Shown: positions 20,923-25,229 of the stretch, one piece after another
Layout: each line of letters starts with the position of its first letter
Numbering within the stretch: the first letter of the stretch is position 1
NCBI GenBank assembly: GCA_035236585.1
Contig: CP141137.1
Coordinates: 7,580,327 to 7,644,326 of the forward strand
Direction of reading: 5' to 3'
Length of the DNA: 64,000 nt
DNA from: Warburgia ugandensis
Lineage: Eukaryota; Streptophyta; Magnoliopsida; Canellales; Canellaceae
Program-made: the position numbers and the translations under genes
Notes under the pieces: generated by a model
Database searches by the model: none
What the model was told of the DNA's origin: nothing
The model's input: only the letters and a program-made list of their open reading frames with translations

Positions 20923-21331
20923 GGTTAATATGCTGATTTGTCAGTCAGTTTTTCGTTTTTGCTAAAATATCCAGACATTTTAACTTTTTACCTATTTGCC
21001 ATTAAGTTTTGCATAACTTTGCAAAAATGCCATTCAGTTAATGTTCCACCGTTATTTTTATAAAATGACGAAAATACCCCTCCTTTCTTCCCTCTGTTTA
21101 AACACTACACTGAGAACAGACGTTTGTGTGGAAGAAGAACGACGGCCGACCGCGAGGGATCTGCCCACGCTCTACCCTTGCTCCGACCAGGCTCCGCCCG
21201 TGCTCAGCCACGCCTCCCACCCTTGCTCCGCCCAAGCTCCGGCCTTGACAGCCAAGCATCCCGCCCGTGCTCCGCTCACCCTCAGCCAGGCCTCGCTTCC
21301 GAGCTCCGCCCAAACTCTTGTTCCACGGACG
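20923..21331 (+). repeat. Left terminal inverted arm of the Pack-MULE
   Basis: This arm matches the reverse complement of 24872-25229 along its length. Its inner, GC-rich half (21140-21331) has many GCTCCGCCC-like direct subrepeats and is about 50 bases longer than the right arm, which looks like gain or loss of subrepeats. The long open frames here are a by-product of that composition. Confidence 0.88.
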
Positions 21332-21342
21332 TATGTGAAACA

Positions 21343-21568
21343 ACTATCAAATTGGAAGACACTGAAACAATCACTTAGATTTGTGGGGTGTGGCTTCCTT
21401 GTCTGTTGCTTGAATATGAAAGATCCTGTCTAGAAGAACTACCTGGGCTGGATTGGGAAGGTTGACATATGTGGACACCACTATCAAATTGGTGTAAGAC
21501 ACTGAAACAGTCACTTAGATTTGTGGGATGTGGTTTCCTGCTCTGTTGCTTCAATATGAAAGATCCTG
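21343..21568 (+). repeat. Direct duplication of about 87 bp inside the Pack-MULE
   Basis: Copies at about 21343-21428 and 21480-21568 share ACTATCAAATTGG, AGACACTGAAACA, TCACTTAGATTTGTGGG and ATATGAAAGATCCTG. They are separated by about 50 bases. The origin is unknown; frames across them resemble no protein I recognise. Confidence 0.75.
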
Positions 21569-22164
21569 GCTTGCATTGGAGCATCTGCTTTGATGCACTG
21601 TCACCCATGTATTATATGTGGTTAAATGATGCAATATTGGTTAAAGATGCTTCGGTTTGTCAGTTAATTTCGGAACACATCAAAGATGTTATTCATTTAG
21701 ACACTTTCAAAAATTAGACTTTTACATTGTCAAGAAGATGCGGTTATCCTATCTATTTATCTATTTTTACACTGTTGAGGGAAATATCTCCTGTCTTTCC
21801 TGTTGTATTCTTTTATGACATGATCTGAAGAGCCTCTCCGGTTTGTCCAAAGTGATGAAATTACACCAAACAGATAAAAGTAACAAGTACATAGCAGGCT
21901 AACATTTGTATGCAGATGAGCAAATGTCTTCCAAGAGCAATGGCACAAGAAAGGTCTCTAATATGGTACCTAGTAGGACATGAGTTCGAGCTGCTCATGG
22001 GTGTGTGTGTTCAACCTTCATATTCAGATAAACTAAAACTGCTTTGGATTTATCACTTTCCATGATAGGTATGAACCTAATCCTTTATATTCAACGACAT
22101 GAATCTACTACAAAGTTCAAGGTAGTGAAGATGATAATGATGACAATGATGGAGAAAGACCGTA

Positions 22165-23049
22165 GGCTTGCCTGGTCAAAAGCTCGCTGCAAGAAGGATG
22201 AGTAGATGGCACAGAAAGGTTTAAGACCTTGACAAGCTAGGCCAGCATCGAAGGTGACAGCATGCTGCTCTGCATTTCCAACATCAGTTCCCTAAGAGGC
22301 CTGCTGGACTACAACCTACTGAGAGCACTGTTCAGAGCTCCAACAGGTGCTATAGGGCCGTCAAGAGTGGCAGTGGGCAAGGAAACTTGCTTGAGTACTT
22401 TAACAGCCCAATGCTTGCACTTTTTCTTTCTCTTCTCTTGTTTTGGCAGCAAGCAGACCAATAAAAGAAACAGGTGACTCTAGGATATAGTCCTATGCCA
22501 TATTGAGGCTTAAGATTGATGTCATTTGCAATAGAACAACAGTAGCTAACATTTTATACAGATACTGGACATGTGGATTCAATAAAAGGAACTGATGATG
22601 GGTCTTGTGTAGTGCCCACTTCTACTACATATATGATCAACGAAAAAATATCCGGTAGTAGCTAAGGTATGTAGCACAAAGAGCTAAGCTCACACACAGT
22701 TCAATGCTCAACTAATACAAATTTCACAAGAAAAATTAGATGTATTAAGTATTTTGATAAATGCAATGTTGAGAAAGCAAATAACAGAACAGAAAGAAAA
22801 GATCGAAGAAGAAGAGGGCTGATATAGACTTTTCAGTATCATTTGGACCAAAAAGCTTTTGCATCCATGAAAAAACCCAGGAACATGTCCGGTGGGATGG
22901 TAAGTAACCCACCTAACGCTGCTGAGATACTGGTTGAACTATGGCCAGTGCCAAAGCAATCATATTCACTTTCTGCACGTTTGGTGAATCCAGATAAACC
23001 GTTTGTCTGTCTTATTGTTGGCATCTTATCTTGTCTCCCAGTCAACATG
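22165..23049 (-). pseudogene. Captured, rearranged fragments of 1-deoxy-D-xylulose-5-phosphate synthase (DXS)
   Basis: DXS is the first enzyme of the plastid MEP isoprenoid pathway. Three family blocks are visible on the minus strand. 22913-23049 is an exon-like block between AG and [22 protein letters not shown] followed by [20 protein letters not shown], the conserved DXS region. About 22291-22393 gives [18 protein letters not shown] and ALNSALSRL. Immediately next to it, about 22165-22285, comes a much later part of the protein: [12 protein letters not shown], then [17 protein letters not shown]. The last two blocks abut after LREL with a change of frame, and the roughly 230 residues normally between them are missing. 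The exon with the thiamine-diphosphate-binding GDGAMT motif is also absent between 22393 and 22913. It cannot encode an active enzyme. Presence of intron-like DNA points to capture of genomic DNA. Confidence 0.9.
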
Positions 23050-23526
23050 CTGAATTATGTTGGTCAAATGTGATATGGAAACACCAATTCTGAATCATGG
23101 AATATACTTCAAGAAAACCTTTTGGAGTGAAACTGAAACAACAAATACAATAACAGTGCCTAAACCTGCTACAGAGAGCGTAGAAGCACTGAACGTCACA
23201 ACTACCATATTTTTTATAATGCATTGCTCAGAGTCTTAAAAGCATGGTGGATAGTGCTTTTCTTTCTCATTGATTATTAAGTTCCACTTCAATTCTGGTC
23301 AGAGAATATGAAAACAATGAAGAAAGTGACATGTTGCCAGAAGAAAGCAACGACAATCTAACAAAGTTTGACAGATAGGGCCAACAGATCTGTTAAAATC
23401 ACCAGTCCATAAATTTCTGCTTTGGAAAGCCAAGGAGTTTCCAATACTAAATCAATTGGAGTGCCAAAATGACTAGATACCCATAGTGAGAGTCATTGGA
23501 ACTGGAAATGAGCTTCATCAGTAATT

Positions 23527-23602
23527 GGATCTTGGTGGATTTGAACCACCATTCTCTTGAGATTAATTCCCAAGTGCTCTACCACATTTGAGCTAAAGAC
23601 CC
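23527..23602 (-). pseudogene. tRNA-like sequence (tRNA pseudogene) inside the Pack-MULE
   Basis: On the minus strand GGGTCTTTAGCTCA opens a 76-nt tRNA shape. The acceptor stem GGGTCTT pairs with AAGATCC, with one G-T pair. The T arm GGTGG-TTCAAAT-CCACC is perfect and the D arm AGCTC/GAGC is present. The anticodon arm is enlarged (a 9-nt loop in CTTGGGAATTAATCTCAAG), so no anticodon can be assigned. The 5' half resembles plant tRNA-Cys. Perhaps a tRNA-derived relic. Confidence 0.6.
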
Positions 23603-24871
23603 AAATGCACCCACACTTAAGGTGCACGCACCAACAAGAATGAATGTGTTCAAAGATTCTGAGTTAGTTATTTTGTGTATATGGCTTATAGAGAATCAGA
23701 TACATCAAAAAGATGCATAAATCTAGAACTTATACGATATGGCTCCACCTACTAATCAAGAAAAAGAAGATCACAAACCATGATACCTGAAAGTGCAAGT
23801 GACCAGAACAAAAAAGTTAACTCCACATCAATGTTCCTTATGGGTTAGGAAATGTACATCAATCCAAAAAATAAAGAAAAAAGAACACTCAAACTTCATA
23901 ATCTTCAAAACTTATTTTGATTTGGCTAACAGCTAAAAAATTTGTCTTCTTCCTTTGCAATATGCAAACTGATATCTGTGTAAAACAATACAAGATGAAA
24001 ACAAGAAATACAACATACCCAAACAAAGTCAACATTATTTGTCAAAATTGTAAACTTCAAATTTACCGAGTATAATAGCATGAACTCTCAGTACAGGCCT
24101 AAAAACCCTACAAACTCTACTTCCAAAGCACAGTCCCACAAATTGGTGTGAAGATTGGACTGCATGATGTTTTAACACAGCTTCCAAGTTCTGCTTGCAC
24201 AGAGATAAGGTTTTGCATCACTAGATCAGAGAACTCTTCAGACAACTAATTTAGCATCTCATGAGTCACTAGTTCTGCAAGACCCAATATTTTCGTTACA
24301 GGAAAGCACCATGAGGTGCAGATGAAACTTATATATAGCTAACAACATACAATTACTGTACTAGAATAACTTTGGCCTGTCAATCATAGAATTTCCATCA
24401 TAACCCAGCTCACTAAAAAGCCTCAAAAAATTCCAATCTTTCTCCAAAAACACATAAATGATACTACCAATAATCAACTTAATTGTCCCAATTTAACTCC
24501 AAAGCAACAGGAAAAACCAAATGTACCATTCAAAGTCATTTCCAAAAGAGAAAGCTTCGCTTCCTTCTGAAGGAAACAGCGACTGGTATTTAGCTCCGAG
24601 CTTCATTTTCTGCCGCTGCAAATCACGGACAGCAAGCACCCAGTAAGAGTGAACCATGTGTCATAGGTGCAAAAGATACATGACATATTTCATCCAGGAT
24701 TGACATTGATTCACTGGATGCAGCCATTGACTTGAACCTCCAGATTCTAATAGACTCCAAGTTTCTCGATTCACACGAGGGCAACTGCAAAGATAAGAAT
24801 CTAGCAAAAACTCATCAACCAACCTGGTTTATAGGACACCGATACCCCAAAATCTGTAGCCTTCCGGTGTG

Positions 24872-25229
24872 CGTCCGTGGAACAAGAGTTTGGGCGGAGC
24901 ACGGGCGGGATGCGTGGCTGTCAAGGTGGGAGCTTGGGCGGAGCAAGGACGGGAGGCGTGGCCGAGCACGGGCGGAGCGTGGGGGCAGATCCCTCACGGT
25001 CGGCCGTCGTTCTTCTTCCGCACAAGCGTCTGTTTTCAGGGTAATGTTTAAACAGGGAGAAGAGAAGAGGGGTATTTTCGCCATTTTATGAAAAAATAAC
25101 GGTGGAACATTAACGGAACGGTATTTTTGAAAAGTTTTGCACAACTTAATAACAAATCGGTAAAAAGTTAAAATGTCTGCATATTTTAGAGAAAACATAA
25201 AAACTGAATGACAAATCAGCAAAAAACCC
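24872..25229 (-). repeat. Right terminal inverted arm of the Pack-MULE
   Basis: This is the inverted partner of 20923-21331. Conserved blocks include, on the minus strand, CTGATTTGTCATTCAGTTTT, ACATTTTAACTTTTTACC and GACGGCCGACCGTGAGGGAT. The two arms differ visibly by substitutions and indels, so the insertion is not very young. Confidence 0.88.

Follow-up and report, generated by a model that had tools for sequence, protein, structure and literature searches.

The DNA analysed here is a single 64,000-nucleotide stretch from Warburgia ugandensis, referred to throughout as the window, and the plant genes that it carries indicate plant nuclear DNA. As an earlier note on this DNA had claimed, two divergent genes flank the segment of interest, APC5 on the left (minus strand) and the gene for protein phosphatase inhibitor 2 on the right (plus strand). 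The first coding exon of APC5 is at 20232–20402 (minus strand), with its ATG at 20402, and further exon matches extend down to 4848. The query in this search was Arabidopsis APC5; the joined exons match Pfam ANAPC5 at 1e-12, while exon 20232–20402 alone matches no family. Exons of the inhibitor-2 gene lie at 29637–30029 and 44449–44655 (plus strand), with a Pfam IPP-2 match of 6.9e-10 on 29637–29747. Among the 120 nearest proteins listed for this gene, the nearest is a Tasmannia lanceolata protein with 74% identity, possibly a paralogue. Between the two genes, in the interval that they share and 5' of APC5, is an element bounded at 20923–25229, 521 bp from the APC5 ATG.

The surroundings hold several other features. 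To the right of the element are a stretch that we take to be like tRNA-Phe, its anticodon arm carrying a deletion (25720–25795, plus strand), and a good tRNA-Trp (25878–25951, minus strand, 66.1 bits). A DUF659 remnant, presumably from a hAT-type transposase, is found at 391–801 (plus strand). Between the inhibitor-2 exons lie both a LINE-like element with endonuclease and reverse transcriptase domains (40535–42971, plus strand) and a stretch at 32924–36078 (minus strand) with similar ORFs, in which the scanned part, 32924–33670, gave a reverse transcriptase match under the cut-off.

The element is enclosed as one unit of 4.3 kb by co-terminal inverted arms, a left arm of 409 bp (20923–21331, plus strand) and a right arm of 358 bp (24872–25229, minus strand), in agreement with the bounds and the 360–410 bp arm lengths given in the earlier note. 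BLAST aligns the arms with 84% identity over 351 positions, gaps included (E 2e-109), pairing 20931–21278 with 24891–25221, and the inner 29 nt (21303–21331 and 24872–24900) are 100% identical. In a full alignment 316 of 351 ungapped columns are identical (90%), with a further 62 gap columns, and the K2P distance over the ungapped columns is 0.108; for this distance, and for the CpG and target-site-duplication counts, the right arm was taken as 24872–25225. The outermost bases, read directly from the sequence, are GG at 20923 and CC at 25229, giving GG...CC ends. No further copy of the arms was found by BLAST within the 64 kb window.

Both arms are AT-rich in their outer part and GC-rich in their inner part, the inner part of the left arm being also CpG-rich and containing degenerate tandem repeats with units of 11, 22 and 45 bp. 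The arms have observed/expected CpG ratios of 1.01 and 1.29; the ratio is 0.26 for the interior and 0.40 for the window overall. When separate 350-bp spots of the window are ranked by CpG richness, two of the top four overlap the arms. CG occurs in at least one arm at 27 aligned dinucleotide positions; at 16 of these both arms have it, and at six CG in one arm faces TG or CA in the other. Loss of CpG in the interior was considered as a special sign and rejected; the inner ratio of 0.255 is only the 47th lowest of 605 windows.

The interior between the arms measures 3.5 kb, of which about 2.7 kb is without a recognised source. The recognised part holds pieces of the gene for DXS, the enzyme that opens plastid isoprenoid synthesis and controls its flux. 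A translated search was run with tblastn over the whole window, using as query an Arabidopsis DXS1 sequence matched to PDB entry 7bzx, and it gave three strong matches inside 22172–23048, all on the minus strand, as the earlier note had described. Block 1 (22911–23048) corresponds to AtDXS1 residues 153–198 (E 7e-19, 83% identity) and matches Pfam PF13292, DXP_synthase_N, at 6.8e-20. Block 2 (22285–22392) corresponds to residues 248–283 (E 4e-10, 81%); it contains an in-frame TAG and has no Pfam match. Block 3 (22172–22285) corresponds to residues 445–482 (E 1e-15, 87%) and matches PF02779, Transket_pyr, at 1.9e-9. Against the PDB, the joined blocks retrieve 13 sequences at E<=1e-3, all of them DXS, with 7bzx the best. 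Other parts of DXS were not found by tblastn elsewhere in the window, residues outside 153–482 being unmatched at both the N-terminal and the C-terminal side; the other five matches listed for the query all have E above 1.

Blocks 2 and 3 do abut after the motif LREL with a change of frame, as had been noticed earlier, and have a single base in common (22285). At this junction 161 residues (284–444) are missing by tblastn, in place of the 230 or so that had been suggested, a figure we reject. A further 49 residues (199–247) are missing between blocks 1 and 2. Nor does the description of the fragments as shuffled survive, since the blocks run 153–198, 248–283 and 445–482, in donor order and on one strand. 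Given this collinearity, we conclude that the DXS content of the element is one captured fragment with two internal deletions, not a set of shuffled pieces. Its exonic sequence comes to only about 360 bp. Alignment to 172 plant DXS proteins, each at least 600 aa long, covers 120 codons, of which 107 are identical in the best case; the donor was presumably of DXS1 type, judging by its motifs.

The edges of the blocks bear on both the state and the origin of this fragment. Block 1 follows ATTCAGC and ends in TTAG|GTGGGT, and block 3 ends in CAG|GCAAGC; the start of block 1 thus resembles an acceptor, its end a donor, and the end of block 3 a GC-type donor. The stretch 22393–22910 (minus strand), between blocks 1 and 2, has no DXS coding match and begins with the donor-like GTGGGT, and is probably a retained DXS intron. 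If the splice-like ends of blocks 1 and 3 are taken at face value, the blocks could belong to an active DXS-like gene whose exons are joined by splicing to give a functional product. Such a gene is contradicted by the sequence and hardly conceivable: an open and complete reading frame is absent, given the TAG in block 2, the frame change and the loss of residues 199–247 and 284–444, the window lacks both the first and the last exons, and eight of 77 otherwise invariant columns are altered.

The last figure, which includes the stop, refers to columns that are invariant in 165 plant DXS proteins, namely the 172 less seven (P0006, P0008, P0009, P0010, P0013, P0015 and P0024) in which one block falls below 60% identity. 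When each of the 165 real DXS was left out in turn, 160 differed at none of the invariant columns, four at one and a single protein, P0007, at six. Zeros are easier to obtain in such a test because many of the 165 are close kin; Tasmannia and Aristolochia, each represented by a single DXS (P0255 and P0272), likewise have zero odd residues. Seven chosen intact DXS, compared in 21 pairs, have 111–118 of the 120 residues in common. Together with the in-frame TAG and the frame change, the altered columns mark a pseudogene, and the view that the DXS blocks are drifting without constraint is supported. From the altered columns the divergence is roughly 0.049 substitutions per site, and half the K2P distance between the arms is 0.054. 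These two rough age estimates agree; provided that the arms were identical at first and that decay was neutral, the capture or insertion would thus appear to be of about the same age as the divergence of the arms.

The splice-like block ends suggest that capture was from DNA; introns of the donor at the block ends, if present, imply a copy made from DNA and not from mRNA. We envisage that a stretch of a DXS gene, probably with introns as the block ends would indicate, was copied in donor order between the arms, most likely from DNA while a break within the element was being repaired. The two gaps may have arisen by loss of template during that repair, or by later deletion. Gap filling and template switching are the routes proposed for such captures in PMC8277862. 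Close to the left arm there is also a direct duplication, with copies of about 108 bp at 21328–21431 and 21464–21571 (plus strand, 87% identity) that begin within 4 bp of the arm's inner edge. BLAST found no partner for 21328–21571 at the right arm, and the duplication is possibly a slippage scar from the capture.

Target-site duplications, which would define a Pack-MULE, were sought as 9–11 bp with <=2 mismatches directly at the ends of the element. Immediately at 20923 and 25229 the 9-mers show no match, and the candidate pair AATAATCA/AATAAATCA can be matched only with one gap. The best ungapped 9-mer near the ends has two mismatches. Among 300 pairs of places drawn at random, 119 yield a 9–11-mer with <=2 mismatches; by this control there is no duplication at the ends better than chance. 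This leaves some room for an ordinary duplicated DXS pseudogene that happens to lie between inverted repeats which are not MULE ends. We consider that improbable, in that the arms are co-terminal, start with GG, end with CC and enclose 4.3 kb as a unit, and in that only pieces of residues 153–482 are present, the N-terminal and C-terminal parts being unmatched anywhere in the window. A missing duplication in a decayed copy is no strong objection to a Pack-MULE, because in eight rows of a table of tomato TIR families in PMC3310237 a duplication was recognised in only 2.4–30.8% of copies.

SINE-like repeat stretches are present in both flanks of the element (20722–20885 and 25288–25389), in the same orientation, and each matches one and the same copy at 10823–10987. 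At E<=1e-3 the window contains 12 other matches to the left-flank stretch and seven to the right-flank one; at this level BLAST finds no match between the two flank stretches themselves. The repeat resembles the plant Au SINE.

The remainder of the interior was searched for other coding content. No transposase family was found by Pfam in the 20 scanned of 55 stop-to-stop ORFs with at least 38 aa, which bears out, for those ORFs, the earlier statement that no MULE transposase lies inside. The same 20 ORFs gave no second captured gene by Pfam, three non-DXS matches with E from 0.041 to 0.21 falling under the cut-offs, and 24626–24811 has no match in the PDB. A scan for bacterial-type promoters and terminators gave 13 against 10.2 ± 2.9 and 3 against 3.7 ± 2.1 respectively, and is not meaningful for a plant. 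ARAGORN identifies a tRNA-like sequence at 23525–23603 (minus strand), which scores 52.5 bits with Rfam RF00005. Its anticodon is TTA, which would read the stop codon UAA; a degraded copy of a tRNA is more likely here than a functional suppressor.

Taken together, these observations lead us to classify the locus, with a probability of about 0.85, as a non-autonomous, decayed Mutator-like element of the Pack-MULE type that carries a DXS fragment. The Pack-MULE reading of the earlier note fits the anatomy best, by the arms, the GG...CC ends, the gene fragment and the lack of a transposase in the scanned ORFs; the word shuffled does not apply. Criteria given in PMC3310237 are TIRs of 100–500 bp with similarity of at least 80%; here they are 409 and 358 bp long, with 84% over 351 positions. 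The enclosed fragment of a protein gene is identified as DXS by tblastn, Pfam and PDB matches alike, and the position of the element 5' of a gene is a further likeness to Pack-MULEs. It differs from them in being present as one copy in the 64 kb window and in having no end duplication better than chance. The Pack-TIR elements of animals, as described in PMC8277862, are similar in that a TIR element surrounds a genomic segment that was duplicated, for which gap filling or template switching is the explanation offered there, but here the host is a plant and the long arms are of Mutator type. Compared with plant DXS itself, with its DXP_synthase_N and Transket_pyr domains, the 120 aligned codons (best 107/120) show the kinship, whereas the two gaps, the stop and the frame change set these pseudogene pieces apart. 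Movement would need a transposase from elsewhere, and the element probably no longer moves. A literature search for Pack-MULEs together with DXS listed one paper, with one mention of each.

The likeliest present role of the element would be none. As chromatin it may be a cis target of RNA-directed DNA methylation. Its Pack-MULE identity could be supplemented by a trans effect, an idea of the earlier note, in which the captured DXS piece would be transcribed and antisense or small RNAs would lower expression of the donor DXS. PMC8277862 states that 40% of Pack-MULEs are transcribed and that they possibly encode small RNAs. An estimate, not a measurement, puts at some 35% the share of 21-mers that could match the donor even now, given a divergence of 0.049 per site, and the CpG ratios of the arms (1.01 and 1.29, against 0.40 in the window) are compatible with promoter-like arms. 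Silencing in trans nevertheless appears very improbable: the exonic DXS sequence is short, at about 360 bp, and the blocks evolve without constraint. In rice, moreover, PMC4858842 links 24-nt RNAs on the internal regions and arms of MULEs to methylation of the elements themselves, and for this reason a cis effect is likelier than one in trans. Less probable again, and highly speculative, is a combined role in which the CpG-rich arms would act as promoters, antisense RNA over the DXS fragment would tune DXS in trans, and the element would at the same time separate the APC5 and inhibitor-2 promoters. The discovery of small RNAs directed against DXS would be needed to give the locus significance beyond annotation. 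We read it as a Mutator-type element that captured a gene fragment in the genome of a flowering plant and that looks typical of a known kind of gene-capturing transposon.
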